Below, piece by piece: positions 3,990 to 63,678 of a stretch of 64,000 nucleotides of DNA. This stretch comes from Hydractinia symbiolongicarpus. Its lineage: Eukaryota; Cnidaria; Hydrozoa; Anthoathecata; Hydractiniidae. Both the position numbers and the translations under genes were made by a program. The notes beneath the pieces were generated by a model, which searched no databases, was not told the DNA's origin, and saw nothing but the letters and a program-made list of their open reading frames with translations. The stretch's first letter is position 1; each line of letters opens with the position of its first letter. The DNA is taken from the NCBI RefSeq assembly GCF_029227915.1, contig NC_079888.1, positions 18,826,001 to 18,890,000 of the forward strand, in the 5' to 3' direction.

Positions 3990-5600
3990 ATACCGATGCA
4001 GGAAATTGTACGACAGGCAAAAATTTGAGTGCCGGCGGACGAGCTAGCTAACGGCTAGTCTCAATTAATTGCGCACATTTAATGGACTGTGTTGTGTATG
4101 GATAATTTTTTTTCACTGTCTACTTCGCGGGGCACTTTTACTCTACTATCCAAGTCGGCTCTTATAACACGACCTGTGTGTTTTGTACTAATAAGACAAA
4201 AACTTCAGCAAAATTTTTGTTAAAAATGTAATTGACACGCTTTTGTTATGGTAATAGGAGTTTGTTTGCCTCGTTTAATCTAAAAGCCTGCTTAAATATT
4301 GCTGCAGCCCACGTGAATTTATACTCAAGAAAGTATTTGTTGTTGTTTCAACCACGTTGCTAAACTTTTTAACAGTAAGAAAGTAAAGTAACTACTTATG
4401 TCTTATATGAAATTATACTCAGAACGCATCCTGGCGTCGATCCAAAGGCCTATAGCTGTTTCCACGAAATCACGAATTGGGTGAATATATTTAAGAAACA
4501 AATTAGTTTTGTTTCAATCATGTCATTAGCCATCTTAAGAATAAATAAAATTGCCAAGTGAGCAATTTGAGAATTGAGATCGGGTTTTTTTCATTGGATA
4601 TAAAGGGGTTCTGTGACTCTTAAATTTTCTTTTGTGTTTAACGTTATCTATTATTTTAAATCAATTATTACTATAAGTTGAGAAACATGACTCGTTGAAT
4701 ATAAATGTTTTCAGGTGGCCAGATTTCTCACCAATACGAATGCTATCACAGCCAGAATTAATTATGAATTAATTTAGAGCGAAGGGTAGTATAATAAGAG
4801 AAGTACTGTGGAATTTTAAAAATGATTCTAATGTTGACTTCAGGTTGTACACTAAACAAGGTTTACAATAAATCAAACGGCAAAAAAGGCATTGATTGAT
4901 GCAATTTTATATATTATCATATTTTATGTATTTTCTGTTCCTTTGGGCAAAACGCTTGTCAACAATCCTCCATTAGATACATTTCTGTTCCCGTCATCAT
5001 GCAATCACATAAAACACCACAATTTTTCATTTTACATTTCTATCCCTTTCTGAATTAGTAATTCTTGCTATTAGCATTTTGGGGTGCATTTGTGGTAACT
5101 ATGGCTAGTAATATCCGTATTCTGTCTGTGGGTGAAAACCAGGTCGTGCTAACCACGCCCAAATAAGTGATCCATAAAAACACAGGCGGGAACTTACTTA
5201 CTTACTTACTATACGGAAAAGATTTTTAGAATCCGTATTCTGTCTGCGCGCGTGAGAAAAAGTCATGTTACGGACAAACGAAATAGCAAATGCGATATAT
5301 TTTTATCGACTATACTACGTCGGGTTTTTCCCCGCGAACCTGTGGGATTTTTGGCACACCAAAGACTAGTATGGTCAAAATAATTATTTGCGAATGTGCA
5401 CTTACACCATTTTTTTATCATTTTTATATTTGATTAAATGTTTTCACAGTACTAAGGTCTAAAAATGTATAATGTCATTAATGGTAATTAACTATTGTTT
5501 AATGAACGCAACCATTACTTTTAATATTGTGTTTTTTCATTTAAATTACCTTGTTTTCGGCATATACTTTTGAAAGAGATCTTGTAGACCAGTTCCTTTC
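3990..5600. other. non-coding stretch with one diverged dispersed repeat
   Basis: No gene is visible. Positions 5215-5345 carry a diverged copy of the dyad repeat family (CCGTATTCTGTCTG, then GCGATATATTTTTATCGAC), and ACTT repeats three to four times near 5195. Confidence 0.5.
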
Positions 5601-5615
5601 AATAATGTTTCTATG

Positions 5616-5700
5616 CAACCTTGTTCCCAGCGCCTCTTATTTCTATTTCGGCTCGCCGTCCCAGTATAATAAAAGACAACATGTGCTGGAAACGAGGTTG
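5616..5700. repeat. short inverted repeat, hairpin MITE-like
   Basis: The left arm CAACCTTGTTCCCAGCG pairs imperfectly with the right arm CGCTGGAAACGAGGTTG-like sequence about 50 bp away. This has the form of a small palindromic element. No target duplication was resolved. Confidence 0.4.
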
Positions 5701-5774
5701 TTTTCAATGCCTTTTAAAAACAAATCAAGTATCAATAGCCTTGACTATTTCCTAATAAAGTGTTTCTCCCGCAT

Positions 5775-6023
5775 TTAAAAGGATACATTTAAACGATGTA
5801 TATCGTTGTGTGTGCTGTGTCCAGCCATAAATCTAAACTGTATGTTGTTAATGTAAGCTTGGGAACGAATAAGATTTCGAACAATAGGCTTCAAAACTTT
5901 TATGTTCTGGAGCTTGGTGCCTCTGTAGTTTCCTTGATATGTTGCATTGCCGTTTCTTGCATAACAGTTTTTAATAAACGTGTCCTTCCAACGACTTTTC
6001 TTCATGGACGATTTGTTTGTCAA
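5775..6023 (-). pseudogene. non-LTR retrotransposon reverse transcriptase fragment
   Basis: An 82-residue frame contains GNYRGTKL, then about 30 residues later QFRFMAGHSTHNDIH. These match the fingers/palm entry of LINE reverse transcriptases (family form NYRG-I-L ... QFGFM-GRST-DAI). Nothing of motifs A to C follows, so this is a dead scrap. It could come from the same LINE type as the 28.2-29.1 kb remnant. The identification rests on motif shape only. Confidence 0.55.
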
Positions 6024-6672
6024 GTTGTGTTATTGCATTACTATATCTCTGTCATCTGTCAACTGTATCGTCTTTTCCTTGCCATATCTTCTGGATAGTA
6101 ACGGGAAGTTTTCCATGTAACAAATATAGCAGGGGCATTTAACTGCTACTCAGTTGTTCAGAGAGTTCTTATTCCAAGGAAACTCAACATTTAAAAGTCT
6201 TTGATAATGTTCCTTCTAAGCATGGAATATCGGAAACTAATGTTTTGTAACTAGAAATAAACAAATGATCCGTACTTCTTTGAAAAGCACAAAATCCCTC
6301 TCCGTTGGCAAGAGTTTCCAATTCGAACAAATTGTCCCAACAACATTTGCAAATTGTAATATGTGCGCTCCAATAAAAGCACCTCAGCCTCTCCTAGCGA
6401 AAAGAGAGAAAGAACTCTATTCAGATCTGCTAAGCCACAATAAAGTCCTCGTTTCGACAGCTACAGCTGTCATCGACGGGCAATGATCGTAATCATCTTT
6501 GGCTATTTATTATTTGAGGATAATTAGAGGATCGAAATCAACCAATCAGATCACAGCGATTAAAGTAATTAACTTTTTCACGGACCCAGATGGAAGCAAT
6601 GGATTGATTAAAATCTTTTCTTTTTTTCTAAAAGTTTTTGTTACGTTTGTCCCGAACCATTTTGCACTTTTT
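6024..6672. other. no recognised gene
   Basis: Short frames on both strands show no motif or exon-like boundary. The stretch probably belongs to decayed retroelement sequence between the LINE scrap and the Penelope-like element. Confidence 0.4.
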
Positions 6673-7985
6673 CTAAATATTCGCTTTCCGAAGTGCAGGT
6701 AACCATATTTCTGGAAGTTGATAGGAAATACTATTGATGTGAGTATTTCTGTCTATACTATTTATGGTTTCTTTCACTTTTCTTGCTTTCCAACCAGACT
6801 CTCGGTCTATGATCTTTTTATTGTCCCAGTCAATAACATGATCATTCTTCCAGCTATAGTCCGCAATCTCATTTTTGTCTGTATCTGCGTTGCGTACAGC
6901 TCTTTTGTGCTCTTGCACACGTTGTTTGAACATTCGTTTCGTTTCACCGACATAAACAGCATCACAATCCTTACACGGGATTTCGTAGACAATTACATTG
7001 ACTCTCTAGACATAATTTGTCTTTCGGATGCGACAGTATACTACGTAGCGTGCTTTTAGATTGAATCACTGGCTTTATGTTATAATCTTTCAATACCCGA
7101 CGAAGTATGTTACTTGTCTCTGGTATATACGGCATACACACTGTTCATTTTCTGCATCCTCTCCGTCACTGTTCTTATCAGTTCTGTTCCTGATTTTCCT
7201 CTCAACCCTTTTAATTGTTTGTCTCAAATACCCATTTGCAAGTAAGGCGTTGTTTATATGAGATAACTCTTTCTTTCGGTCATTCTCTCCACTGACTACA
7301 TTGACTGCTCTGTCCAGTAATGAAGACACCGCACTTTCTTTGCAGGACAGTTGGTGATTGGATGTGTGGTTGAGATATTGATCAGTATGAGTTGGTTTGC
7401 GGTATACTGATACTGATAAGTTACCACCGTTTCGAGACACTAGAGTGTCTAAGAAAGGAAGCGTACCGTTCTTCTCGTGTTCAGTTGTAAATTGAATCTT
7501 CGGGTGCAAATTATTGATATGTTCATGAAATGCGTCTAGATGTGCTCTTTTAATTATTAAAAAGACGTCATCCACAAATCTTTTCCAAACTCTTGGAGCG
7601 TGATCTGCAGTTGTTAAGGCGTCTCATGAGCCTGCATATATATTTCAGCTACCACAGGAAGTTGGGCCATCCATAGCCACACCGTCAGTTTGCGTAAAGA
7701 AGTTACCGTCAAATAAATACCATGTTTTTGTAAGCACAACTTGGACCGAGGACATTAGTTTGTCTATAGGGATGCGTGTTTTGTTCTCATACTCATCATC
7801 ATTTAGCAGTAATTCCCTGATGATATATAATGTGTCCTTTATCGGTACATTTGTGTACAGTGAAGTAACGTCAAATGATACCATATACTCGTAGCCTAGA
7901 TTAAACTCGCTTGTTGATGACATGATAATATGTATATTATTCAATGACAATGACTGAACAGATAAGTGGTAATATTTTTAAAATA
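6673..7985 (-). mobile_element. Penelope-like element remnant: RT plus GIY-YIG endonuclease
   Basis: Read on the minus strand, 7950-7645 gives the RT block with VSFDVTSLYTNVP, the signature palm motif of Penelope-like RTs. A short broken stretch follows, then 7575-7090 encodes VDDVFLI (catalytic DD) and FLDTLVSRNGG ... VYRKPTHTDQYLNH, also typical of the family. A frameshift near 7130 leads to a segment with TLRSILSHPKDK, then YEIPCKDCDAVYVGET and a tail to 6673 (EHKRAVRNA ... WDNKKIIDRESGW) that matches a GIY-YIG endonuclease. The order RT then GIY-YIG is that of Penelope elements. At least two frameshifts and a missing N-terminus make it inactive. Confidence 0.85.
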
Positions 7986-10144: not shown

Positions 10145-13100
10145 ATGGATCAATCTATTGCAAGCTTACTCTCCGTTAGAAAAGATGGTTCCCCAGGAAG
10201 AACATATTACCTTCATAGTTCGGACAAAGACTTGCTCATTGGAACCTCGTAAGTCAAAAAAGAATTTATTATTATTTAAACAACAGTCCTCATTTAACAT
10301 ACATGAGTAAAAAAACCGCAACCGCATTTTAATTGTAATTGTAATAAGCGTAATCTATCTACAACCCTGGACACGATATTTGTGGCCGTTTTTTGCTATT
10401 TCTCGAAATGGCACAACAGCATGCTTTGGTCAGTCCTTTGCATAAGCTGCAACAGTTTACTTTGCCGGGGTGTAGTAAACAACCTTAGAAATTGCTTGTG
10501 ATTACGATCTTCGAAGTTACGCCCGCGGATTTTGACTGGAGCCCAAAATAAAACAAGCATAATTCTCAAAACGAGGAACAATCCGAGTCTATATTTTGAC
10601 GAATGACGCCATTGTTCATAAGCACAATTACAGAGCTGCATCAGCAACAAAAACAACTAATTTTCACATAAACACATAAATTCCAGAGAACTTTAAGAAA
10701 ACATTTCCATAAATAAGAACAAAATAACGCTAAATTCTGAAGTTGTGCTCTTATACTTCTGGTTAAGAACAAAAGCCAAGATTTCACTGATTCTTATAAA
10801 AAAGCGTCATCTCCGGGGTTGGAAATTTATAATAACTTTTGTAACCTCAATTTTTTATACAGAACTTTCTAAACATTTTTATAAGAATCAGAAATTTGCC
10901 TTTAGCTGTTTTTTCACATGGTTAAGGTGGGTTTATACTTATTTTGTTTTCCTATCTTAAGCATTTTTTATTCATTTTACAGTACATAACAAATCCTCGC
11001 AGTCCGAAAGGTCAATTGATCCCGCAAAAAATAAATTTACCACGGAAGATTTGCCCATGTTTTTTTTTGTTTTTAGGAAGAAAGAAAAATTCAGTAAAAT
11101 TGTGCCTTCAAATTGTTTTTATTTCGCTCTTTTTCTCCAAACAATCTCAGCCTCGTGTATGGTCTTACTAAAACCCTTTTAATTTCACAATGACTAAAAG
11201 CTTTTGTGTTTTTATGTTTTGTTTTGAATAATTGTTGGTACGAGTAAAAAAATTATGATTACCTTTCTTCCATAGTCCTAAAGCGAACATCCAGATAAGC
11301 GAGGCAACATATGAAAATATTGACACATACCATTGTAATTTGTCGTTAGAAGATAACGCGGTAATTTTTTCTCATTTTTATTTTCTAATTTTTATCCGTC
11401 ATTTTACTATCCAATTGATGTAATTCTTCCATTTAGTATATTTTACGTATTACCACGGAAATTTTTCCAACGTTTATCAATGGAGATGAAGTCGCGTGTG
11501 CAACACCATTGAAACATGGCGATGTGATTTCAGTAGGAGATAAGAAGTTTAAATTCTTTTATAGCAGAGGTATACATTGCCGCTAGTATATTCAATTTAA
11601 AATGCGTGGGTTAACAGGGAAGTATCAGTTAGAGAACTGAATTTTAAGAACCAACTGATAATTTCTTTTTTAACTCTAAATGAGCGATTTTTTACCATTT
11701 TCTTTTTCAAGCAGATGTATGCTTTGATACTAAGCCATCTATCATGCATGCTTTTACTATTTATTACTCCCTTATCTATGAAGTATATCTACACAGTTCA
11801 AACATTAATATTTAAATTTAATAAGTAAATATTAAATAAGAACTAAAATTAAGGATAAAAAACCTTTGGAACTAGATCCATTCGTCAGGATTGTTATAAA
11901 AAACCGTTTTCCACTGGGAGTTACTTTCAGCAAAAAAACGAAAATACGTACTTTAATCCCATACACCCCATGTGTACTACAGTATGCATCTTTGCACGAC
12001 TTATGCTTTAAAATTTAATATGTGACTGTGTTCTTTAGATAAAAAATTTGATATACCTCTCGATGAATTGAAATATCTAATGAATACGTTAGAACCGGAG
12101 ATACACATGATCATGTCGGGAAAGGTAAAAGTTGGAGGAACATTTAGAGTAGCATGCTATGTTGTGCATTTGTGTAATTTGTGTCATTATTTGAAATTTT
12201 TAGACTGCGACTGATAGATATACACTGTACATAAATGGTGGCGATGATAGACGTAAGCGTTATATATAAAATTTCATGATGAAAAGTTCATTCTCCAAGA
12301 TCTTGTTGATAAACATTTCTTTAATGTTAGACATTTTCGTGTTTCTGTGTAACTGTTATCTGTTCAGTTTTGCAAACCTCTATAAACCACACATCTATCG
12401 TTATACTGTTTTATGTCATGCTTTACTACATCATATAGTTTTTTATATGTTGATATAAGTCATATGAAGGCTAACTGAATCTTCTAGACTCTCTTGATAC
12501 CAACAATGGTTTGAACTACTTCTCAGATGGGATGGTAGAATATGTTACTGGCAAATTAATCACTTGGTTTTCTAGCCCCAAGGTAGTTGTTTTGTATTCC
12601 TGGTTGCGCAGTTGTTTTTGTCTCGATCGCATTTGACAATCATACTAGTCTGCATTATCTATTTGAGACCGAAAGGTAGTTAAAAAATTCATGTGATGTG
12701 TAAAAAAAATACTTGTTTTAGTTCTTTGACGGTGTTATGAAAGTCTTGTTGCCAGACACCCTGGTTTTAGTGTTAAGCAAGATTCAAAACATCAGTTTTA
12801 AAAAGGTAATCTGTGTTACGGTATTTATAAAGCTTACAATTAATAGTTACCTAGATAATTAATAATTTTGTTCGATGATTTTGTAGGCGTTGACCCTAAC
12901 TTTAGATGGAGAAAGCTTCGCAAGTGCTTTATCTGTAGAAGAAAATGAAGATAATTCATCCCTTGGTAAGCAAACATAAGGCTATAAACATAATTATAAA
13001 CAGGATTTTTTTACCAAATTTAAATTTCACATTATATTTACGTTCTGTTGTTAGTGTCACTTACTACAACTGAAAAACAGTCCATGTCAGAAACAACAAA

Positions 13101-16100
13101 TGCAACACCGGTGGTGAGTACTTTTGTTGATTATGTGATTTTTTATAAGCATGCTCTTAAAAAAAATTGTTCAATAATGGTATTTATTACTACAGCACTG
13201 CCCAAGCTCCCCAGACGTACTAATTGGAAAAGACGGGATTGACTTTGATTCCCCGATCGTTGTTAGTAAGGTACAATTCATTTTAATATGCATCTTATCC
13301 CTACGCAAACTAAAATGCAAGAAAAAGTTTGTTGACGCAGGATTTTGAACACCGCTAACCAATGTTCTTTAGTTCCTTTTTTTTCATGTACCTTGAAATT
13401 GTGAGAAGAATTTTGTCATTTGGCACAGAAAGTAAATTTTTTATATTTTCAGAGTAAGTCAATAAATGAATATACCACACGAAAAGAAAGACAATGATCC
13501 CTTTACTTACATTTTTGGAACAATATCAATACTTTCTATTTTGTTGCAAATTTTGGGTGCACACTCCTGTCCTTTTTAAGTGTCATTGTGGTTATGCGAA
13601 CTAATTTTATCATAGGGAATTGAGCCAAAGACAAATCGCATAAAATCAAAAGACGAAGAGAGAAAAAGGAAAAAAAGAAAAGCTGAGGAGGAGATTGAGG
13701 ATCTAAGAAAACGGTTGCGTAGGGCTGAAAGGGCGGCAGAGAAGGAGTTTATGGACGTAAGCAGCGAAAAAGAAATTTGTCACGAGGAAGCAGAAGGTGA
13801 GGAAAGGGTGAAGAATGACCTTAAGTATAAGGAAAAGAAACTTAAGGAAAAAAGAAAAAGGGAAAGGTTGAGAAAAAAAGTTAGAGCAAATTTAGAATTG
13901 TACTTGCCTTCACACGATACCGTCAAGCCAAGTCATGTTAAGAAGAAGAGAAAGTTTGAAATGAAATGTATTGAGTGCGGTGAGGTCATGAAAAGCGATA
14001 GTTTGGCTGGTCATTTAGTTACTATACATAAGTATAGCAGTGACACAGCTCGCATGAAAGAAAGTGAACTCAGAGTAATGTTTTTATGGGCCTCAAAAGA
14101 AAAGCATGGGAGTGAGAAGCCTTTGCCATGTGTGATCTGCAATAAATGGCATATGCGGCTAAGAAACCATTTAAGGTATAAGCACAAGGATTTGCAGAAT
14201 GAAGACATCAATAAAATTGTGGAAAGTGCAAGGAAAGAGTACTGGTGCACAGCTAAACTTGCTGAAACCGCGAAGAAAGGAGGAGTAAAACATTTAGAAC
14301 CTGAAAATGATGAGATCAGCAAAAGAAGCAAAGACCGATTTCAGGCCAATTTATATAAAGGACCAGCTGCCTCTTATGCTCCGAAAAATTCTTTTATTTT
14401 GACAGAATTCGATAGGCAATTATGGAATTTAAAGGAAAAAGACTTTTTTAATTTTTATTATAAAGACCAAGCATTTCTGATGAAGGCCTTCGAAGAAGAT
14501 TTAGTGGCAAATGGTAGTTCAGAACGGCAAGCAAAACAACATTGCCAATATGTTGAATACATATGGGATATAGTTGACCCCAGTAGAACAATGTTCCCTC
14601 TTCATGCATTTTCTAACCCAATTTGTATTGAGGACAACTACCATCGATTGTCTCTGGAACTTGTTGGAAAAGGAGGGGTTGAGGCAAATACATTGCGCAC
14701 TAGATTTTCTTCCTTGCGGCATTTTCTGAAGTTTCTGAGACGTCGTCATATCTATGCAGGCCTTACAAGAGAGCATTTTCGTCTTCTGGAGGAATCAATC
14801 GAAGACTGGAATATTAGATTACGCCCTCTTATAAAGCAAAGGAAGGTCAATCTGAGACGTTTGAAGACACGGCACTTGTTAACGGTTGAGCACATGATAA
14901 AGTATGGACGCTCACCATTTACGCAAGATATTGTTGCGAAGCTCAACAATTATAGTACACGTGGCAAAAGCAAGTATACCATTGGCTTTTGTTTGAAAGT
15001 ACGTGACTACGTAATGACCAATATTTGTATTATGAATGGTTTAAGAGCCTCGAATCTCATAGAATTGCTAGTGAGTGATGTGAAGGAGGCCAGTCGTCAC
15101 GATGATTATCCTGGACACTGGGTAATCATCAACTCTAATTACAAGACGTCGACGATATATGGGGAGAAGGTTATTGCTATACCAGATGCGATCTTTAATC
15201 ATCTGAAAATATACATGGACCATTTACGTCCTTTGTTTGAAAATGCATCATCAAAATATCTATTTTTGCCGTCATCAAATGAAGATAAAATGTCTCACGG
15301 TGTTGTTGGCAGTGCTTTAACAAGCAGCTTTAAAGATGCCGAAGTTTTTAGCGAGAAAGAATATCAACGAGTTTGTCCAACCAGAATTCGATGTGCATGC
15401 GCAACGTTTGCATGTAACCTTGAAGGCATGGACATTGGATTCTTCGCTAAGAACTTCATGAAAAACAAAGAGGAAACAACACAGAGGCATTACAATCTGC
15501 ATTCAAATGTAAAGCATGCCTTGAGTCTTGCAATGATGGTCGGCGATGGGTTTCAAGTAGGAGGTGAACGTATCACCATTAAACAAAGTGAAAGAGAAGA
15601 TTTGACAAATCTACTCTTAAAAAAATCCCGACCTTCAGAACTGCCTTCAAAAGAAAAAGTGCTAGAGTGGATAAAGTTGAGAAACTCTGACTTGACAGCA
15701 ATGGAAATGAACGCCATTGACCAGATATTGGAAGAGCTGTCCGACCCATCCACAATATCTGCAGAAAAAACAGCGAGTTCGTTCTATGGCGATGTAAGTG
15801 TTTGATCATTATAGGTTTAAGTAAAAAAAATTGGAAAATTTTGGATTATAATTTAAACTTATACTTTAGCAAACGGCTTTTTTTATTTTTGTTTTAGAAT
15901 TGCATTGTTACTTGAAAAACTTACTGCTTTAATTATAGTGTCTTGAAAATGAAAATGATGGCAATGTTGAGGATGGCGGTGGAATTGGTGATGATGAAGT
16001 GAGAAAGGTAAGTGTGATCAACTTTCTTGGTTTGGTTGAGAATGGCAATCTTAAAGAAGTAAACAAACTGTAGCCTTCAAGATCTATTTACGCATACATC

Positions 16101-19100
16101 TTTGTTTATTAGATCGAAAATTTCTGTCCACCTACACCTAGTATAAAAAGCAGTAAATCTATATGTAGAGAAGTAAGTATTATAGCTTTAATAATTCTTT
16201 AGTATTTATGTAAATTACTAGTGCTAAAACTAGTTTTGAAAGAGACAACTATTGCTCACTAGTTACGTTATGTTTAATAATTTTTTACCGAAAAAAAAGG
16301 GAAGAAAAACAAGAAAATCTTTTTGTTTAAATTGCACTAAGACTACGTTTACATGTAGGCGGGATGAAATTTCATCCCGGGATGACTTTCGTCCCGGGAT
16401 GAAACCTTTTTTGTTTACATCTCTATTTCATCCCGGGGCGAGTTTTGAATAATTTCATCCCGGGATGAAATTATTCAAAACCATTGCGCATAAAGTTCAG
16501 AAATAAAGGTAGTTTCATCCCGGGATGAAATATTTTTTCTGTTTACATGGAGATTTGAGAATAGTTTCATCCCGGGTTGAAATTTCATCTCGGTCATTTC
16601 GACCGGGATGAACTCGCCCCGGTATGAGATTTCATCCCGCCTAAAACTTGTAAACAGTATAAAGACTTTGGCCAGAGACAGGGATGACCTCATCCCGGGA
16701 CGAGTTTTATCCCGGGATGAGATTTCCCATGTAAACACCCCCTAATTTAAGTCATTTCTAGTTCTTCCACGAAGATTTATTTTCATGCAAACAAATTTTT
16801 GCAAAAATTAACTAACTTATGTAGCATTAATCCTTATTTACCTGTCCAAACAGCTGCATTATTTACTCAATATTTTACGTATACAAATTTTCTTTACTAT
16901 TTCTGGAAAATATTGACCAAGACGTGTGAAAATTATGTCAAATTATTATCTAAATTTCTGAGTCAGTAGAAATTTCTAGTTAAAATAGTATAAAAACAAG
17001 AAAAATCGGCTTCTACAAAATTTCAAAAGTAATATTTTATATAGCGGACATTGAAAATGTGCTGAATTAGCCGAGTATACCCACTGTATAAAGTATTTAT
17101 TGTGATTTAGCAAGTTAAAGTTACTGAAAGTACAATGAAAACAAGGTCGACGATAAGTATGGAGAATACAGCTTCGGTATGTGCTTTGCTTTGTAGAAAT
17201 GCCATTTTTTTTAAATATAAACATTGGAATTATTATCTGGTTGTAATAAAGGGCGTTTGATGATATATGTCCTAATAACAATTCATACCGACGTAAAATT
17301 TCCATTGTACATTTGATATGAAACATGCTTGCCCCCTTATTGTCCTGTCTTGCTAGCTTGCGAAAAAATGTTAAACTTAATTCAATTTTCCCAGAACAAA
17401 AAGTAACGTGATCACCTCTAATCATTGTCTTGTTTCCTCCCTGAATAGAATAAGCAGGATCATGCCTGTTCCAGGCCTTTATTCAGTCTATTTCGTTTTG
17501 GTATTACATTAAGTAAAAGAAAGGATTTAGCAAATTTTATTCCTTATCTGCTGTTTACAGAATACTTTTGCTTCTAAAAACCTTCATTTTAAGGGGTCGT
17601 GTATTTCAGGATTTTAGAAAGAAAGTTTTGTTTATGACATAAGAACTAATTTTAGTGAGTCTAATCATTAGGTTCTACAACATTAAATTATTCCTTGAAT
17701 ATGGTGGTAGAAAAAAAGTTAGTTAAAATGCATCTTAGAGTTAATAGCTTATGTAAATTTAGTCCGGATTTATAAGTATTGGAGAAGTTGATATGGAAGA
17801 TGAACAGAAGCAAGCGAGAAGATTTGTAGAACTCGGCATTGACCAAGACGGATTTGAAAAAGTTTTTATTAACGACGACATTGGTATGATAGTTTAGCTT
17901 GTGTCAAAGATTAGTTTAATACAGTAGAATATTATTACACGTTACGATTATTATTTTTAGCTTTTTTTTTAACTTCATACCAAGCCACTATGTGATAATT
18001 AATTTTTTTTAGGTTTTGGAATATTTTCAACCAAAAGTTTTAAGAAAGGGGAATTCCTTCTTCAGTACAGAGGGCAGTTACTCTCCAAAGACGAAGCTGA
18101 GAAGAACGAAATGGGATACGAAGAGGATGGTTTCGGCTGTTTTCTCTACTTTTTTGATCATAAAAAGAACGAGAGAAAAGAAACACTATGGTAATCAATG
18201 ATAGATTTAATTCGTTAAAGAAAAAACATTATATGCTGTACTATACAAAATATGCTACGCTTTACTATATATACATTATGTGCTTTACTTAATGCTTCTA
18301 ATCAGATTTCTGTGAGACAAATTGAATTAAATGTTTTAAATTTTCACGGAAAACAAAACAAAAAAACAAACAGTATAAAAATGGCTAAGGTATAAAAACC
18401 TTTTTTTGTCCAAAACAAACAAACTGCCTCGGCATCTCAGGGATTTGAAACCAAATCGTTGCATTTGTCTCTTTGAAATATGTTATGTCTCTTTAATTTA
18501 GTGTTGACGCAACCAACACGGAATCTATTTGCAAATATGTCAATGATTCTGCGTTTCCGAACTGTGTTATGAATAAAGTCATCGTCAGAAGTTCGCCTTT
18601 TTTGTGTCTCTTTGCCGTCAAAGACATACCATCGGGTATAGAATTGCGGTATGACTATAAGGATAGAAAAAATCTCTGGTGGAGAAAAAAGGTAACTTTA
18701 ATTTGATTTATAACATTGGTTAAAACTTCTTTCAAATGAAGGATATTTTTAATAAAGGATAAATACCGGTAATAGTAACGAAACCTCCCGATATAAAGCT
18801 TAATAAGAACGATGTTGATCAAGCATCGAGCCTTGAAGAACACGCTTTGTGAATTAACTGTGGTTCTTCTTTAAAAAAAACACTTAACTTTCGGCATAAA
18901 TACTGTACATATTACAATATCTTCCTTAAAGCTTTGCGTAGCTTAATTATAAATGCCCAAAATAAAAACTTATATAACTAAAATTCAAAAATAATTACAA
19001 CTGGCCAGCTGTTGCACTAAATATGCTTTAAGATACTTATCTTTTAAAATCTAACCTGCTTACTATGTAGATACTTGCAAAACAAAACATATAAGAGATG

Positions 19101-20735
19101 TAGATAATTAATGCTCATTTGATTATGAAAGTCTTTATCTAATTTTCAGTCGTGTCTGCTACAATTTTTTTAAAGAATTTAATTTTTTTTCAGGAGGAAT
19201 GTAAATTTCCATTGAAAAAGACAGAGTTAGCTAATGCTCCATCCACGGTTCGTATTACTGATTTCAACAATTACTTAAATACTAGTCGGTGGCCCGTGGA
19301 AAAATCCACGGGTTCGCCCGTCCTTTTTATACCGCATTGCGTGCGTCTCGCTACTTGCGGTACCATTTTGCGTGACAGACAGACAGACGTATACGGGTAT
19401 TATAATATAGACTAGCCGTTAACCCGTGGAAAAATCCACGGGTTCGCCCGTCCTTTTTATACCGCATTGCGTGCGTCTCGCTACTTGCGGTACCATTTTG
19501 CGTGACAGACAGACAGACGTATACGGGTATTATAATATAGACTAGCCGTTAACCCGTGGAAACATCCACGGGGTCGCCCGTCCTTTATATATCGCATTTC
19601 GTGTTTCCGCCACGGGACTCGCCTACCGCGGACAGACAGACTAAATACGGCTGTTATTAAAGAGATGTTAAATATCTTAATTCACCTACCTTCGTGTTGA
19701 TGTACTATTTTGGAGCCCTCTATTTTACGCGAACTCTAGGCCAAGCCAAAATTTTAACGATAACAGAAATCCCAGGCCATTTTTCCATTGCAACCCAGAC
19801 TTAGTTCAATGCAATCGTGAACTGGTAAACAGCAATAAGCGCTCCTTAAAACTTTTCTATTTTGTACATTTTAAATTTCAGTGCATGCATGTGTGTTTTA
19901 TAATATTTAATTGTTACTTGCTTAATTTTAAGGATGAGTCAAATGATGCGTACAATCCAGAGTCCCAAAATGTGAGCGAAGACCTTGACTCTGAGAACGA
20001 CGAGGAGCTTGTTAAGGTGTTTTTCCCCGCACTTTTTTCTCTTCTTTTTTTTCTTTTGTTTACAAAATTAAAATAGTTCGGTGGTAATTTGTAAACTTGG
20101 AGGCTGTGCATATGGAGGCGAGTTATGGATCGCGCATATGCAGGTTCGGTTGACTTGGCTAACTCGGCATCTTGCTATTGTTCAGAAAACCTTATAAAAA
20201 ACATGTGTTCAAAAGAGAAGCGAGTCAGCCCGTCTTTCCAAGAAATATTTTGAAAAATTTATAACCACCCTAAAATAATAATTAAAAACTAACTTGAAAA
20301 AAGTTTTTGTAGAAATTTATAGATTAAAACTGTCTAACTTTATTATAATATCCATAGCCGTTACGGAAACAAAAGAAGAGAGAACGCCTGGATGACGAAG
20401 ATATGGCCAAACCTGACGATTTTGTTCCGTCCAGAAGATTTGGGAGAAAAACATACTTGGCCCTAACAAATATTTTTCGTGATATCGTCGTTCGTGCTGA
20501 TTACGCAAACGAGTATAATATGAAGTCGTTCGCTATTTCAGAGCTACATGACAAATTGGCAGTATCTGACCATCCGTGGCTTGACAACATAAAGAAAATG
20601 AACGTCAATGATTTGAAGTACTGTGTGCATACGCTGCGCAATAAATTTAGAAGTGCAAACGCTAAAACGTTGAGAAAATGGGGAAAATGGTGCGAGGATG
20701 TTGAATCATTTTATAGGCAACAACAAACCGTTTAA
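10145..20735 (+). CDS. FHA-zinc finger-tyrosine recombinase-SET fusion protein (20 exons)
   Basis: My exon model: 10145-10248, 11276-11360, 11437-11569, 12039-12124, 12204-12252, 12488-12582, 12722-12805, 12887-12965, 13055-13113, 13196-13270, 13616-15793, 15939-16007, 16113-16172, 17111-17176, 17763-17883, 18013-18190, 18502-18691, 19194-19247, 19933-20016, 20358-20735. All junctions are GT-AG and in phase, giving 1408 aa. Residues 1-108 resemble an FHA domain (YHCNL; KHGDVISVGDKKFKF), but the usual phosphopeptide Arg is Thr. Residues 284-380 are very basic and helical. Zinc-finger-like C-x2-C...H units lie at about 401-421 and 455-473. A tyrosine-recombinase-like fold spans about 620-930 (R760, K793, R875, Y909). 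A KMT5A-like SET domain spans about 1110-1230 (GFGIFSTKSFKKGEF, CVDAT, ELRYDY). Residues 1284-1408 are unknown. It is probably a nuclear chromatin protein; that function is inferred. The weakest junction is the donor at 19247 (GTTCGT). Confidence 0.8.
13616..15793 (+). other. large exon 11: basic region, zinc fingers, recombinase-like core
   Basis: This 2178-nt exon keeps one frame of 726 codons and carries the whole recombinase-like region without an intron, while every other exon is under 400 nt. Such an intron-poor block inside an intron-rich gene suggests capture of a mobile-element coding sequence, for example a Crypton-type YR element (inference). Box I reads NGLRASNLIEL and box II reads TRIRCACATFA ... 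TTQRHYNL. The SET domain lies in separate small exons 15-17. Confidence 0.7.
16341..16745. mobile_element. palindrome-rich MITE in intron 13
   Basis: Within about 400 bp, TTTCATCCCGGGATGAAA-type palindromes and half-sites (CATCCCGGGATGA, GGGATGAAA) recur many times. The outer ends read GTTTACATG at about 16347 and CATGTAAAC at about 16729, inverted to each other. This is a non-autonomous element of the foldback/MITE type inserted in the intron between 16172 and 17111. The superfamily and target duplication were not resolved. Confidence 0.65.
19281..19655 (+). repeat. three tandem copies of a 130-bp dyad-bearing repeat
   Basis: Units start at 19281, 19411 and 19541, exactly 130 bp apart. Each begins ACTAG then CCCGTGGAAAAATCCACGGG, a perfect stem, and ends with GACAGACAGACGTATACGGG. 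The first two are nearly identical and the third has diverged. The array fills part of the intron after exon 18. Diverged relatives occur at 3862, 5215 and 30298. Confidence 0.85.
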
Positions 20736-21662: not shown

Positions 21663-21954
21663 TTCAGAGTACCAACAGGAAAGGCTGGGGAAATGTTTAT
21701 TGATAATCTTAGCATTTGGTTGCAACAATTCAACGCCAATACAAAACTTAATGCAATAGCGATTAAAGTGTTCATGATACTGCCGACGTTGTTCCAAAGC
21801 AAAAGACCATCTAGCTTGTTTAACCAGGAGATTGGAGCAATGGCAAAGTGGGAACTTTGAGGTTATAATGCGGGAAGTAAGGCAAATACAGCGAAAATTT
21901 GGTACATAAAAAAACCAGAGGACAGCGAATGACATTTCGAGAATTTTTTCGAAA

Positions 21955-24481
21955 TTGGTCATGGAAGGAAAAATATCGGCAGCATTGAAATTTTTAGATA
22001 AAGAGTCTTCCTCTGGAGTTCTAAAATATACGCCTGAAATTTTGCAAGACCTCAAAACTAAGCTTCCGGATGCGGCAGAAGTTCAGGAAGACAGTCTCCT
22101 TCATGGTCCATTGCAAAACATACCGCCCTACTTCTTCGATGCAATTGACGAAACGCACATCTTTAATGTTGCACTACGAACGAAGGGATCTGCAGGTTCG
22201 AGTGGAATGGATTCTGATTCATATCGCCAAATTTTATGTTCCAGGTCCTTCGGAAGTCAGTGCAAAACACTTCATGAAGAAATTGCAAATTTCACCAGAA
22301 ACGAAGCCGCACGCTCTTCCAACCCGGACTTGTTGGATAGTTATGTGTCATGTCGTTTAATAGCTCTTGATAAGAACCCTAGAGTGGGGGAAGTTTTACG
22401 GAGGATTGTTGGAAAGACAATTAATCACCATTGTAGACAGGAGATAAAGGAATCCGCGGGTCCTCTTCAAACATGTGCAGGGCATGGCGCAGAAGCAGAG
22501 GCAGCCATACATGTCATGAGACTTATCTTCCAGTAGGATGAAAGTGACGGTGTACTACTCATCGATGCTCAAAATGCGTTCAATTGTTTAAACGGAGCAG
22601 TTGCTTTACATAACATTCGAATAACTTGCCCAATTTTATCGATGTATTTGATTAACACATACTGCATACATGTCATGAGACTTATCTTCCAGTAGGATGA
22701 AAGTGACGGTGTACTACTCATCGATGCTCAAAATGCGTTCAATTGTTTAAACGGAGCAGTTGCTTTACATAACATTCGAATAACTTGCCCAATTTTATCG
22801 ATGTATTTGATTAACACATACTGTCAACCAGCGACCTTATTTGTTTCGGGCGGAGATATTATTTTCTCAAAAGAGGGGACGAATCAAGGAGACCCCCTTG
22901 CAATGCCGTGGTACTCCTTGAGTACAGTGACAATTATCGATGCATTGAGACAGTGTGAACCATCCATTAAGCAAGTTTGGCTTGCAGATGACGCCAGTGC
23001 AGCTGGTAATTTACGTTCACTGCAGATGTGGTACAAACAACTCGCGAAAATTACGGTTACTATGTTAATCAATCAAAATGCTGGCTCATTGTCAAATCTG
23101 ACGACTTAGCAACAGAAGCAGCTACAATATTCGGTGAATCAGTGAATATTACTACTCGTGGAAAAAGGCACCTTGGTTCCTGTATCGGATCAGAGGACTA
23201 TCGACGAGGAGATTGTGGAGATTTGGTCGAAAGGTGGACTAAAGACCTTTAAACATTGTGTGAAATCGCCGACACCCAACCGCAGGCTGCTTATGCAGCT
23301 TTTACGAAAGGATGCAAATCCAAATTTTCTTATTTCATCCGGACAATCTAAGGATTTGAGCAATTCACTGAACTACTGACTCGTTGCTTAGTGACAAATT
23401 CCTACCCGCCCTGTGCGAAGTATTTAACAATCATAGAGACTTGCTCTCCTTGAATCCATCAGAAGGAGGACTCGGAATTAGCACCATTTCAAAAATAGCA
23501 ACCGAACAACACCAAGCCTCCGTTAAAATTACATCATGTCAATGCAATTTTAAGTCAGAAAAATGTAATATCTGAAACCGATGGTAACCGAAAATCGGTA
23601 AGCGAATTAAAAGCAGAAGTAAATTCAAAACGTACGATGTCGAAAAAGATGAGGTTAATGCCATTCACGAAAAACTACCCGATAACTTAAAATCACTGGT
23701 AGATCAGGCATACGACAAAGGAGCTAGTGGATGGTTGAATGCTTTACCCATTAAGGAGCAGAACCTAGACCTTAACAAAGAGGAATTTCGAGACGCCCTT
23801 CGCTTAAGGTACAATGCGCCACTCAAAAACTTACCAACATATTGTGCGCGCGGCGAAAGATTTAATGAATGTCACGCAATGAATTGCAAGACGGGTGGAT
23901 TTGTAGTAAACAGATACGACAACATTAGAGATTTTTTGGCAGTGTGTTTAAATAAAGTCTGCAATGACGTAGAAACAGAACCGCGTTTAATGCCTATCAC
24001 ATATTAGAAATTTTCCTTGAAAACTGCCAACACCAGCGACGATGATAGGTTGGATGTTAAAGAGAAAGGTTTTTGGAGGAAGGGAGAAACTGCATTTTTC
24101 GATGTTAGAGTCACGCACGTTCATTCAGAATCCTTCAGAAACCTTGATACGCAAAAACAATTTAGAAGACACGAAGAAGCCAATAAATGCGAGTACGTTG
24201 AACGAGTACTGGACGTTGAGCATGCCTGTTTCACGCCACTGGTCTTTGGGACAAATGGTGGTGTTGGTGACGAATGCGGACGTTTTCTAGCTAGCTTTGC
24301 AGCAAAAATCTCTGCTAAAACTGATGACAATTACGCAGCCATAGTGACATGGTTACGTACACGACTCTTTATGGAACTAACACGTGCCTCTTTGCTTTGT
24401 TTAAAAGGGTCAAGGACTCCATTCAGATCGTACAATACTGAGAAGACCCGTTTGGACAATGTTGTTAGTGGCTTAGGCTAG
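21955..24481 (+). pseudogene. retroelement reverse transcriptase with nuclease-like C-terminus, broken
   Basis: The frame from 21955 carries RLIALDKNPRVGEVLRRIVG, then [16 protein letters not shown], motif A ([10 protein letters not shown]), EGTNQGDPLAM (motif B) and QVWLADDASAAG (motif C, ADD). After a shift near 23080 the RT thumb region follows in fragments to about 23580. Another intact stretch, 23735-24481, has LDVKEKGFWRKGETAFFDVRV, whose D...D-V spacing resembles a PD-(D/E)XK nuclease core (inference). An in-frame TAG at 22533 occurs twice because of a tandem duplication. Several frameshifts make it dead. The group resembles RT-domain repeat proteins seen in cnidarian genomes; I cannot name the clade. 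Confidence 0.75.
22506..22823 (+). repeat. exact 159-bp tandem duplication inside the RT
   Basis: 22506-22664 and 22665-22823 appear identical base for base. The unit is 53 codons, so frame is kept. It duplicates both the premature TAG and catalytic motif A. Confidence 0.95.
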
Positions 24482-25980
24482 CTTTTGTACTTAAGGTGGC
24501 TAAAGATTTATTTCCCACAACCTGGTTTGTGGTTTCAAGTTTCTATACGCCACGCGATTTGTTCCCTTTCTGATAATCAAGAGTCGTGTGCTTTCACTGT
24601 TTTCTCGACTGAGTCCTTCCTGTGCTTCCCTCAGAACACCAAGCTTTTATTTTTATCTAGTGTTTAATCCGTGTATAATTGTGTGTGTGTGGAAAAGGAT
24701 GGGGAAAGGGGGGGAGGGGGTAGAAGGGGGTGTAAATGAATAAACATATATTGAGAATACACCTCCACGCTTTTTTATTGTCATGATCAACTTGGGATCG
24801 GACCAGAATCTTGTGTTTGCTTGCTCAATTAGCCTGGTAAATTGACATTGTCGTTGTATGTAACATGAACTTTCACACAAGGAAAATCTTGGAAGCAATT
24901 GCTGTTGTTTAAATTTCTGTAATTTGTCCATTTATTTTTATTTTTTTATTTACTCACTTCGGGATCGGTGTTGGACAAGTTGCTTCGTGTTTTGAAGAAT
25001 TTGACCTTATGTTGCTTACAGCTTGTTACTTACATAAAAATGCGTGTATTTCCAGAACAATAAATATAATACCTCATCGGGGAATAAAAAAGTAGGGGGT
25101 AAAGTTAATCGGTGAAAATTTCACTCACCATTACATAGAATTAATTAGTTTCCCCAGAATAAAATTGGGTCTCAATAAGGAGAAATATATCTACTTCCTT
25201 GCTATATTTTCCCGTCTGTAATCATTAAAATTCATTAGTTAGTATGAAAACTAAGTCGATTAAAACAAAATTTAAACATTTCAATACAAAATTTTTAGTC
25301 GAGGATTAAGGAAATCGGGGAAAAATTAGTCACCAACCCTTAAATTTAGTCACTTTTCCCTGGTTTTTTTTCCTTGATAAGGTATATTTCCAAATGAAAT
25401 ATTTTAAATTTTATCCACTATTTGGTGGTCTAACGAAATTTTCTCAGCCAAAAGATTTTCTAAATATGCATAAATACACATTTTCCGAATTATTTCTTTC
25501 ATATTTCGCAGTTTTTTCCAACTCTTTTAAGGAAAATGAATGTGATTTTAGAAAACCTTACCTGAAGTTTAAAAAGGACAGAAATTTTCAAAATCATGCA
25601 GCAAATAAATAACCTGTTACGACGATTTATTTAATTTTATTACACTTGACCACTGCTTCAAACCAGACGTATTATGAGAAGTCGAAAATTTAGCAGACTT
25701 TGACCGTGACAATTACACCACCGAAACAGTAATTCCCAAAGTCCAAATAGGTTTATTTAGCCATGCTTAGTCCAAAAACAATAACATAAAATCATAAATC
25801 TAAAGTTTCAAACATATAATTTTAAAAACGTGTAATAATTCCAGAATAAATTAAGATTGGAATAATTTAAAATCAGAATAAATTAGTGAATCCATACACA
25901 CAATAAAAAAATAGCGAAAATATGCATTTAAATATCTTAATCACGGAGAAATGACCTAAAATAGACAAAAGAGTAATTAG
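24482..25980. other. AT-rich, no gene recognised
   Basis: The stretch contains a GT/G-rich tract (24678-24735) and otherwise A+T-rich sequence. Frames of up to 92 codons lack any motif. Confidence 0.5.
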
Positions 25981-25984
25981 GAAA

Positions 25985-26110
25985 TTATACTACCATTTAC
26001 GCGTCAATTGCGAAGAGGAATTATACTACCATAATTTCTATACTACCATTTCGGGAATTATACTACCATTTTCGGGAATTATACTACCTTTTCGGGACTT
26101 ATACTACCAC
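25985..26110. repeat. short interspersed phrase ATTATACTACCATTTTCGGGA
   Basis: The phrase TTATACTACCA recurs at about 25985, 26021, 26038, 26060, 26080 and 26100, usually with a CGGGAA spacer. It directly abuts the trinucleotide array. Confidence 0.7.
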
Positions 26111-26111
26111 C

Positions 26112-26387
<276 letters not shown>

Positions 26388-32425: not shown

Positions 32426-33351
32426 TCACTGACTTTTTGGTTCACTGTACACTATACCATCACCAAGATTCATAAGTGCAGCACAAACAGTAACAAGCTT
32501 AAATTCTGATTCAATTGCTTCATCAGAGAGAGACTTTGTCATTGTAATGGGTATTATTGGTCCAGTAAGAATGTTATATCTGTTTTTTATTAACCCAATC
32601 ACACGTTCAATGTGAATACGTATTGAAGCTATTTGATGAGTAGTCTGTACCTCCTGTGCAGACAATTGCTTTTTTCCCTTTGTGAAACTAGGCATAATAA
32701 GTTTAACGCTACAACCTGCTGCAAACTCATTGGTAAGGTAAATCCACGATTTGCAAGTATTTGATCTTCAGGGTGATGATATTTGCTACTGATAAAGCCA
32801 CTTTGCTTGACCAACTCAACATCTGACACTCTACCATCCCAAGCCTTTGAAAGAAAAGAAATGGATCTTTGAGGCAAGCAAGCAATTAAGAATTTAACAT
32901 TTGAGTGTTTTTTGTAATTTGAATAAACCTCATTACGTGCATTGAACTTTTTTGGCCTGTCAATAAAAATTTCAGTGCAATCAATAATACTAGTCAACCT
33001 TGGAAAATATTGTTGGAAAACATTTGGAAGAGAGTGAATGCTTGCATCATGATCAGGCCAATGTATTAGCCATGATAATTTTGTAGAGAGTAAGTCGATC
33101 CACCTTTGGAATACTTAATGGGCAGTACTTCGTGGACAGTTGAATTGGTCTGCCATATTTTCAAATTGTAGGTTCAAACGCAGCTTTGCAAGAGTCATCA
33201 GCAACTGATCTTTGAAAGGCATCTTCGATCGAAATTTTTTTGGCAACGAATTTTTCACCATGTCAAAAACAGTGTCAAATTGATCTTTGTTTACTCCAGT
33301 GTAATATTTAAATTTTGCTGGCTTTTTTTTCAGATGTTCATAGCATATCAA
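32426..33351 (-). pseudogene. DDE_4-type transposase (PIF/Harbinger or ISL2EU group), broken
   Basis: From 33351 down: a start region (KKPAKFKYYTGVNKDQF), then PFKDQLLMTLAKLRLNLQFE, an in-frame TAA at about 33118, then LTSIIDCTEIFIDRP (first Asp), AWDGRVSDVELV (second Asp), ILANRGF, a one-base frameshift near 32745, and QIASIRIHIERVIGLIKNRY (catalytic Glu). This is the order of DDE_Tnp_4 transposases. The lesions (one stop, one shift) are few, so inactivation is fairly recent. No THAP domain was found upstream in frame. Terminal repeats of this element are not identified. Confidence 0.85.
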
Positions 33352-36152: not shown

Positions 36153-36680
36153 TTAGGATCGGGAAAGAATAACAAAATATTTCCAGTTAAGTTTTTTAAA
36201 AAATTATTTGCACAGTATTATATACAGTGACATAAGGCTGAATTTCTTGCTACATTCTACCTCACTATAAATTGGATTATATTTATACTTTTTTGCATGC
36301 ACAATTGATACTTTCAAAATGTTTAAATTGCAGTCTGTGAAGCATTTAAAATAAAACTTTATAAATATTTATTTAAAAAAAGGATGAGACAAAATAACAC
36401 TCTTTTCAGACACAGGCATAAAAATGTAAAAGTATATATCATACAACATAAAAATATAAAAAAAATCAGGCCAATGATTACTTTAAAAATATAAAGCTGC
36501 AGGTCTACTGTAGACATGCAACTTTAATATTTTTTAATGAACTTTATAGGTTAAAAAATTTAAAGGTATAATCTATAAAATCTGCAAAAACAAAATCTAT
36601 AGATATATGCGTCAGTTCATGTTAATGGTGGCAAGTTTTTCCGCAACTTTAAGTCAAAAAACCTTGTGGTTTACTGGTTG
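36153..36680. other. AT-rich, no gene; 5' flank of the LINE
   Basis: No motif is seen. The LINE 5' end may lie near 36600, but there is no clear boundary. Confidence 0.4.
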
Positions 36681-36682
36681 TA

Positions 36683-37708
36683 ATGTATCAGAAAGACTTT
36701 TCCTTTAATCATTTCACAATCAAAATGGCAGCACAGAAAGCAGCAGCGTTTGTGGCTGCTCTATTATTTGTTGTATTATTGCTGCAAAAACGTTTTTACT
36801 TATGCTCAAATGAAAACTATTCGCTTTATTTTAAAAGTGGTATGGATATTGTCGAGAGTAGTGGTATTTGTAACATTGAATCGTGCTTTTTTACAAGTCT
36901 TAACAAAACGCGAGTATATTTCTCTAGACGAAGCAGATGGTTGTTTGTGTTGTTGCTTTTAAGCGGTGATGTTGAAAAGTGTCCTGGACCTAATGCCACA
37001 GATGAAATCCGTGAATTTACTAATGCAAAGGGCATGAATATGTTTCACCTGAACGTTAGAGGTCTATGGGCAAATTTTGCTGAGATTTCGAACATTGTTA
37101 TAAACAACAGAAAAATCGACATTTTTTCTCTTACGGAAATACATACGGGAGATGAACCGGAGGACATGTTTGCAATTAATGGATACACATTTATACACAA
37201 ATCTCGTAAATTTGGAAAAGGAGGCGGAGTAGCATTTTATGTTGCTGATCATGTTATTTATAAAAGGCGACACGATCTAGAAATAAATGAAATTGAAGGT
37301 ATTTGGTTAGAAATATGTCCAAAAAATGCGAAATCGTATTTACTTTCCGTAATTTATAGACCCCCGGATAATTCAAAGTATCTTAATAAAGATTTTTCAT
37401 CTCTTCTATCTGATGTACTGTCATTAACATTAGACGGTATCAAAGAAGTTATAATCTTAGGGGACCTTAATGTCGAATTTCTGAAAAAAAAAGATCATGT
37501 TGGGATTAAAACAGCTTTAACGTTACACGGTTTTAAACAAGTCATTAAATCACCAACCCGAATAGCGGAAACGTCACAAACTCTTATCGACATTATCGCT
37601 ACAACTATTTGCACAGTTATAGCAGATACCAAAGTCATCCCCATTTCTTTTAGTGACCATGACCTTATATGTTGTATTAGAAAACAACATCACACCCGTT
37701 TTCGTTAG
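36683..37708 (+). pseudogene. LINE apurinic-like endonuclease ORF with 2A-like leader
   Basis: The first 95 residues hold two hydrophobic stretches (AAAFVAALLFVVLLL and WLFVLLLLSG) that could act as signal or membrane anchors. DVEKCPGP follows at residues 96-103. The exonuclease-endonuclease-phosphatase fold begins at about residue 117: HLNVRG (Asn), SLTEIHT (catalytic Glu), GGVAFYV, VIYRPPDN, ILGDLN (Asp/Asn) and FSDHDL (catalytic Asp-His). These are the standard active-site residues of LINE endonucleases, which nick target DNA for reverse transcription. The frame ends early because of one extra T near 37705; the next segment continues in another frame. Confidence 0.8.
36968..36991 (+). other. 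2A-like ribosome-skipping motif variant (DVEKCPGP)
   Basis: The motif follows a leucine-rich run, as in many CR1/L2-type LINE leaders. The consensus is D-V/I-E-x-N-P-G-P; here Cys replaces Asn. Skipping would separate the hydrophobic leader from the endonuclease. Activity of the Cys form is uncertain. Confidence 0.55.
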
Positions 37709-39498: not shown

Positions 39499-39540
39499 TC
39501 TTTACATAGACGAGCAACTTCAATTATTGGAAATCAATTC

Positions 39541-39840
39541 TTGACACCACCTGATACTGTCAATATGATAGAAATGCGAGCTTGTAATTTCATTCGCCGT
39601 TGCTTGGACAACGATGTGTGTGAAAATTTTAAAAATTACTTCACAAAAACAAACCACACAAGAAACACACGTAACAACAGAAATAGCTTGAAATTACCTA
39701 ATCTTCGTTTGGAATATGCTCGTGGATCTTTCTGTTACACTGGAGCACATATTTACAATACACTCCCGTTGGACATTAGAAAATGTGAATCATACAATAT
39801 TTTTAAGTCGCAACTGAGAGAATATTATCTGCGTATTTAG
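39541..39840 (+). pseudogene. LINE C-terminal domain
   Basis: This 99-codon frame (RACNFIRRCL ... NRNSLKLPNLRLEYARGSFC ... IYNTLPLDIR) matches the conserved C-terminal region after the RT of CR1/L2-type elements. It is separated from the RT by a stop near 39498. It ends at TAG 39840 and the 3' UTR follows. Confidence 0.7.
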
Positions 39841-63264: not shown

Positions 63265-63678
63265 TATTGGTTAGAACCTTTTTTGGCAGAGTAATAAAGT
63301 ACGGGGAAGAGTCATCATTTCTTATCAATTAAATAAATAAGAAAATAAGTGCAGGCGGGCCAATCAAATTGTTTAATTTTGCGCAGCATAAAGGCTTTGA
63401 GCCAATCATAGTTGAGAAAGAAATGCACAGCTTGTCAAAAGAAAGTTTTGTTTTTATTTGGAGGTTACTTTGCATAGTTTCTTTTTTATATAATTATCAA
63501 GCTAGCTAGCTACCTTAAATGAAGTTTTTATGTCAGTTCGAACCTTGTCAATAGGAATCGCCCTCGTATACGAGACTGCTTCGCCATACATGGGATAAAC
63601 ATGCTTATTACCAAACTTCAAGTATCGATGCAAAATATCTGATTGTCTACGAACATAAACAAATTATTAATCTTTCAG
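63265..63678. other. no gene seen between two divergent units
   Basis: This is the shared upstream space of the minus zinc-finger pseudogene and the plus exon at 63679. It ends in the acceptor TCTTTCAG. A bidirectional promoter is possible but unsupported. Confidence 0.35.

Follow-up and report, generated by a model that had tools for sequence, protein, structure and literature searches.

Fusion of a SET methyltransferase to a transposon enzyme is known, as far as the descriptions consulted extend, from SETMAR (Metnase), a single domesticated primate gene in which the enzyme is a mariner transposase. Large elements mobilised by a tyrosine recombinase (YR) are known from fungi, where the Starships use a different YR family. 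A gene encoding both a YR and a KMT5A-type SET domain was examined in a 64,000 bp stretch of the Hydractinia symbiolongicarpus genome (RefSeq assembly GCF_029227915.1, contig NC_079888.1, positions 18,826,001 to 18,890,000; referred to here as the window). Unlike SETMAR, the gene (window positions 10145..20735, + strand) combines the SET domain with a YR and is still part of a multi-copy element, designated F1, and unlike the Starships, F1 and related elements are found in an animal, are 10-27 kb in length and carry the methyltransferase in or next to the YR gene. The gene probably encodes the recombinase of a YR DNA transposon that has (AAT)n microsatellites as its insertion sites.

Two further described systems share features with F1. 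The available passages on Cryptons (Kojima and Jurka 2011, PMC3212892) describe elements that likewise have a YR, a proposed circular intermediate, neither terminal inverted repeats nor long direct repeats, and representatives in cnidarians. However, Cryptons are described as having terminal direct repeats of 4-6 bp and R-H-R-Y catalytic residues, whereas F1-type elements have junctions in AAT microsatellites, arrays of a 15-bp motif and the residues R-K-R-K-Y. According to the same passages the YRs of CryptonA elements match DUF3504 (PMC3212892), whereas here DUF3504 was not among the matches listed at E 1 for the exons and the spliced model, or at E 0.1 for five YR families, and the elements were therefore not filed as CryptonA. 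The YRs that nimaviruses direct to telomere repeats (PMC10871703) also combine C2H2 and SAM-like parts and home to a short tandem repeat, but the passages available place them in virus genomes, of 300-360 kb in one group, with (TAACC)n targets. Those passages mention no SET domain, and the likeness is drawn from the descriptions.

The genome (480.9 Mb in 76 contigs) was searched with the protein encoded by exon 11, which includes the YR domain, and matches were found elsewhere at C14:4151177 (100%) and, in two pieces, at C3:14173688. Comparison of the surrounding sequences, in stretches of 50, 40 and 40 kb, revealed a dispersed unit present as copy A (26,753 bp; C14:18825361 to window position 26113, + strand, with the left end ~640 bp outside the window), copy B (25,865 bp; C14, about 4137558-4163422) and copy C (24,212 bp; C3, about 14161705-14185916), which differ from one another at 0.18-0.28% of aligned bases. 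In all three copies the alignments stop in (AAT)n tracts on both sides, and beyond these tracts no alignment of the flanks longer than 400 bp was detected at E 1e-10. The left AAT tract stops one base before the left end of the element, and the tract at the right junction in the window occupies 26114..26386 (+). Both junctions lie inside (AAT)n, where a short terminal repeat such as AAT is indistinguishable from the target.

Immediately inside the right junction of copy A, the 15-bp motif GGGAATTATACTACC forms an array at 25980..26108 (+), with copies starting at 25980, 26016, 26053, 26074 and 26094 (at most 2 mismatches). The right ends of the F1 copies carry 5 or 6 direct copies of the motif. 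At the left end there are an inverted copy, 11 bp in from the junction, and two direct copies within about 580 bp; the stretches of 50, 40 and 40 kb contain no other occurrence at up to 2 mismatches. The leftmost 631 bp and the rightmost 406 bp of F1 were each found in 3 full copies and at one degraded place in the genome. Differences between the copies in coding sequence (0.19-0.28%) are not below those in non-coding sequence (0.18-0.23%), and at 10 of the 15 coding positions with differences between copies the residue is altered. Copy C is frameshifted in exon 11, while an open frame of 729 aa is kept in copies A and B.

Exon 11 (13616..15793, +) encodes a coiled/basic stretch, two C2H2-like fingers (model residues 401 and 455), a segment with a weak SAM-like match and the catalytic YR domain. 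This exon alone passes the cut-off of PF00589 (Phage_integrase), with 29.1 bits against 27.1 (9.9e-7). It was also matched by the NCBIfam models XerA (exon residues 291-626, 4.8e-7) and XerD (9e-6), in both cases far below the strict curated cut-off of the model, and by a PHROG integrase (0.0026). The original prediction, made from the sequence alone, had pointed to a YR-like core (R760, K793, R875, Y909) and two C-x2-C/H units upstream of it. The four core residues proved to be invariant in all five YR families that were aligned (5 of 28 loci), each of which matched Phage_integrase with an E value no higher than 0.1 (lowest 1.6e-7); the two units do exist, but are C2H2-like fingers. F1 and the related families F5 and F2 retain both fingers; for F4, the frame searched contains the first one. 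In place of the customary YR histidines there is a Thr at the histidine of HxxR (aligned to XerD) and a Lys at the H/W position (aligned by eye), and both replacements are kept in the five families. Relatives of this YR were also sought in phages, where none was found, and in viral contigs, where two pattern matches were obtained and neither was confirmed.

The predicted structure of the gene, 20 exons in consistent phases encoding ~1408 aa, could be rebuilt from the ATG at 10145 to the stop at 20735 with GT donors and AG acceptors, and gave exactly 1408 aa in the order FHA - C2H2 - C2H2 - YR - SET - C-terminal part (10145..20735, +). The donor of exon 18 (GTTCGT) is a weak site. Neither a named family with this domain order nor any YR-SET element was recognisable in the open-access papers searched, at the level of titles and abstract openings, in agreement with what had been stated before for the family. 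When Pfam was applied to the spliced model, the anticipated N-terminal FHA domain (exons 1-3, 10145..11569, +; residues 31-97) scored 32.3 bits (1.3e-7) against a cut-off of 20.7, and the SET domain (exons 15-17, 17763..18691, +) scored 58.8 bits (8e-16), so that both of these domains are above cut-off, while Phage_integrase at 26.8 bits (5e-6) falls slightly under its cut-off of 27.1. Single exons gave 16.7 bits for FHA, and 27.5 and 28.0 bits for SET, both scores rising once the exons are joined. Exon 7 (12722..12805, +) is similar to a segment upstream of the YR in F2 (50% identity, E 3e-4). Exon 20 (20358..20735, +) encodes the C-terminal part, which has no Pfam match, and at 31% identity (E 1e-9) resembles a segment on the downstream side of the YR at C7:18978220.

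Among solved SET structures, the nearest relative of the SET domain is KMT5A/SETD8 (1e-21, compared with 1e-13 for the next family), which bears out the assignment made originally. The NHS motif of the KMT5A cofactor site is not kept, and reads NDS in the SET domains of F1, F2 and F4. The nearest solved relative of the FHA domain is Ki-67 (1.2e-5), and in the alignment with Ki-67 Thr and Asp occupy two positions of the FHA binding face, which we take to be those of the phosphopeptide-binding Arg and Ser of the conserved face. The suggestion that the FHA domain would bind partner proteins is therefore doubtful.

Genome-wide, 53 YR matches were obtained and grouped into 28 loci, and long stretches were compared for four loci (F2, F3, F4 and F5) besides the three F1 copies. 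F5, on C6, is a 10.0-kb element located between two AAT tracts, with the end motif TTAGAATAGTACTAC. F2 (C1, 13.0 kb) and F3 (C13, 15.4 kb) are copies from the same family, which has the end motif GCAGAATAGTACAACC, and share 98-99% identity in long blocks from tract to tract. At the right end of F4, also on C6, GTCTGAATTATCCCACC is present six times, together with an AAT tract. In the 250 kb compared there are 14 AAT tracts of at least 24 bp, all 14 of which are at element ends with AAT always on the strand of the gene; the last 24 kb of the window contains no AAT tract of this length. Shuffled sequence also yields matches to the end motifs, 0-2.4 in each stretch with a maximum of 3 mismatches, and isolated genuine matches are present away from the ends in copy A, F5 and F3, thus the weight of the motifs rests on their clustering at the ends.

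KMT5A-like SET pieces were found at 154 places in the genome, 150 of which were grouped into 124 loci. Among the matches listed, a KMT5A-like SET lies within 10 kb on the same strand at 18 of the 28 YR loci and on the opposite strand at none, where 0.07 would be expected by chance; copies of one family are not independent, and the p-value calculated for this excess is consequently too low. Leaving out the three F1 copies, 15 of 25 YR loci in these matches are linked to a SET. As a control, the 41 PF00589 matches in the genome, made up of the three F1 copies, eight of F2 type, F5 and 29 outside the 28 loci, were examined, and none of the last 29 has a SET within 10 kb among the matches listed. 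Of the 18 linked loci, 10 have the SET upstream of the YR, comprising F2/F3 with their copies and two loci on C7 (one of them with SETs on both sides), and the other 8, comprising F1, the F4 copies and C14:6061262, have it downstream. The METHYLTRANSFERASE travels with the recombinase. Given the AAT ends, the end motifs, the related families and the recurrent linkage of YR and SET, F1 belongs to a lineage of AAT-inserted YR transposons that took up a KMT5A-type methyltransferase.

Several observations weigh against this interpretation. There are only three full copies of F1 in the genome. Among the matches listed, 10 of the 28 YR loci, including F5, have no SET within 10 kb, and only 18 of the 124 SET loci are linked to a YR while 106 are not. 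No left end of F4 was detected within 30 kb, nor does F4 appear among the 41 PF00589 matches. The best match of the YR to a solved structure is XerD, which is weak (E 0.08), and an AlphaFold prediction for exon 11 made from the single sequence with no alignment gave an unusable model (pLDDT confidence score 38.5). No FHA match better than E 0.11 was obtained in the F2, F4 and F5 stretches, where sensitivity is limited by the spread of the domain over three exons, and for this reason the FHA domain looks like a feature specific to F1, or one that has diverged elsewhere. A single transcript through FHA, YR and SET is a prediction from the gene model. Finally, the left flanks of copy A, F5 and F2 have part of a repeat in common directly in front of the AAT tract, align over 144-256 bp, tract included, and are thus not wholly unrelated. 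The left tracts of copies A and C, F2 and F5 are also preceded by a sequence that resembles TATCCTGTATAAATATTC with no more than 4 mismatches, for which no match was found in copy B or F3. On the basis of this sequence and the aligned flanks, insertion may usually be into an AAT tail belonging to a dispersed repeat.

Other explanations for the locus were considered. The original prediction had a host KMT5A-type methyltransferase capturing a transposon recombinase to find its DNA targets, which would make the gene a domesticated host gene comparable with SETMAR. While the many exons, the frame that is intact in two copies and the retention of R, K, R and Y would fit such a gene, it is present in three near-identical dispersed copies, each in a unit with recombinase-type ends, its coding divergence is not below that of non-coding sequence, one copy is frameshifted, and the same end plan recurs in other families. 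Domestication is therefore very unlikely, and the direction of capture was probably the reverse of that proposed. Ectopic recombination between AAT microsatellites could have used the tracts at both ends to copy 26 kb of host DNA three times, but a segmental duplication of this kind is highly improbable as end motifs adjoin the junctions, with an inverted copy at the left end, and the same design with different motifs is seen in other families, in a single orientation relative to AAT. Nimaviral YRs also include a C2H2 part and home to microsatellites in the passages available (PMC10871703), and F1 might on those grounds be an endogenous large DNA virus or a derivative of one, like the nimaviruses that dwell in telomeres. 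However, the related elements for which both ends were seen are 10-15 kb in length with, by eye, one main gene, which leaves a viral origin with scarcely any probability.

It is also conceivable, though unlikely, that a genuine element encodes no 1408-aa fusion, and that YR, FHA and SET are encoded by separate genes lying side by side in it. The fusion is predicted from the gene model, no homology was found for exons 12-14 in the stretches from related families, and the SET precedes the YR at 10 of the linked loci and follows it at 8, an arrangement that might be expected of loose modules. A codon-use score trained on the 7 domain-bearing exons, with random open intron pieces as the null, was negative for exons 6 and 9, and exons 5, 6, 9 and 14 scored better in another frame. 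Nonetheless, the 13 untrained exons together gave a strong signal of 75.5 (null mean -34, maximum -8.5). Phase 0 and splice sites are shared across exons 10-15, and the frame of exon 11 has no ATG within its first 45 residues, all of which argues for joining. Long Hydractinia genes that combine a SET with other domains are also reported in the passages available from a study of the KMT5A-like genes (PMC10368294).

For a YR transposon inserted at AAT tracts, a mechanism can be proposed. The two C2H2 fingers and the SAM-like part would bind the family-specific end motif of ~15 bp, and the YR, through R, K, R and Y with Lys replacing the H/W residue, would cut and join at the AAT junctions. A circular intermediate would probably be formed and would recombine with an AAT tract elsewhere, which would leave AAT on both sides in one orientation, as observed. 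In such a circle, the right-end motif would face the inverted left-end motif across about 19 bp including AAT, and the facing motifs could constitute an inverted-repeat core of the kind used by YRs, for which the available passages of PMC3212892 give a shorter spacer of 6-8 bp. The extra direct copies of the motif may act as arm sites. The SET domain would be carried in the product of the element and would most likely methylate a histone lysine, H4K20 by homology, where the recombinase sits. KMT5A is coupled to replication, and the role of the SET may be to keep the element expressed or protect it from silencing, or to couple the element to replication.

The unusual fusion model on a mobile element makes a case for a superfamily of its own. 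More broadly, these elements could form a separate superfamily of animal DNA transposons, consisting of microsatellite-homing YRs with family-specific arrays of end motifs that are fused to or paired with a KMT5A-type SET in two orders. Part of the KMT5A expansion in hydrozoans, and perhaps in sea urchins, would then be made up of such elements and their derivatives, and the SET may write H4K20 monomethylation (H4K20me1) on the chromatin of the element to escape silencing or gain rounds of replication. We hold this wider proposal only tentatively, at somewhat below an even chance, and our estimate of it was lowered slightly because so few of the SET loci are linked to a YR in the matches listed.

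Further features were noted within F1 and among its relatives. A stretch of ~2.5 kb with Penelope-like open reading frames (ORFs), assigned by eye, is located at 5449..7937 (-) in copy A and is also in copy B, but is absent from copy C, indicating that the F1 unit moved after gaining this stretch or that copy C lost it. The Penelope-like ORFs at 6673-7977 (-) include, by eye, a GIY-YIG-like end. Intron 13 contains repeated palindromic units of TTTCATCCCGGGATGAAA type at 16340-16730, with a perfect 40-bp self-complementary stretch at 16442-16481. In the right part of F1 common to the three copies (21910-24481, +), there are broken ORFs resembling, by eye, reverse transcriptase (RT) and nuclease sequences, with no Pfam match. 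A retrotransposon of DIRS/Ngaro type, in which RT is a core gene, was considered because of the RT-like ORFs and set aside as these particular ORFs gave no match at E 1e-3 in the F2, F3, F4 and F5 stretches. A probable degraded older relative of F1 is present at C11:17106104-17114433 (-), with a partial right end (94%) and SET exons of 73-81% identity, and no YR match was found there among the matches listed. A KMT5A-like SET at C4:6127852-6128256 (+) lies in a single stop-free frame of 1272 aa, and neither it nor other multi-copy SET families have a nearby YR among the matches listed.

The remainder of the window carries traces of other mobile sequences. A DDE_Tnp_4 fragment (6e-24) at 32632-33114 (-) is presumably a piece of a Harbinger-type transposase. 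Interrupted ORFs at 36653-39840 (+) resemble, by eye, the endonuclease and RT of a non-LTR (long terminal repeat) retrotransposon, and a 1789-aa open frame at 52845-58214 (-) appears by eye to encode a BEL/Pao-type polyprotein. The sequence at 45403-45819 (-) resembles by eye the C-terminal part of another YR family (RHR...GH...Y), with no Pfam match above cut-off. Fragments of C2H2-like zinc fingers were found at 62394-63328 (-), with zf-C2H2_6 at its cut-off in 62394-62870, and may belong to another mobile element or a host gene.

The available passages of PMC10368294 report as many as 65 KMT5A-like genes in Hydractinia, of which 22 are activated early in the embryo; the corresponding gene totals are 24 for Hydra, 61 for a sea urchin and one for Nematostella. 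Most of the Hydractinia genes have an N-terminal SET, with further domains in the longer genes, and their C-terminal ends are similar between Hydractinia and the urchin (PMC10368294). The main text of that study treats these loci as genes and mentions no integrase, recombinase or FHA, though its figures and tables may show such domains. Crypton, KMT5A and SETD8 are likewise absent from the main text of PMC11067881, which describes the Hydractinia genome. In view of the linkage described here, part of the published expansion may be transposon-borne. Some of the H4K20-methyltransferase-like genes, whose expansion is unexplained, may then be transposon genes, which would give part of that expansion a concrete cause; some of the expanded genes switch on at genome activation in a hydrozoan embryo.

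Here one mobile unit, with a simple AAT target, unites a chromatin writer with a site-specific recombinase. Should the YR prove active with the R-K-R-K-Y site and the compact motif, it might also serve as a recombination tool of animal origin. An active SET would mean that an animal transposon writes its own chromatin state, and if the wider proposal is true, extra rounds of replication would explain how copy number rises in a YR element that moves by cut-and-paste.

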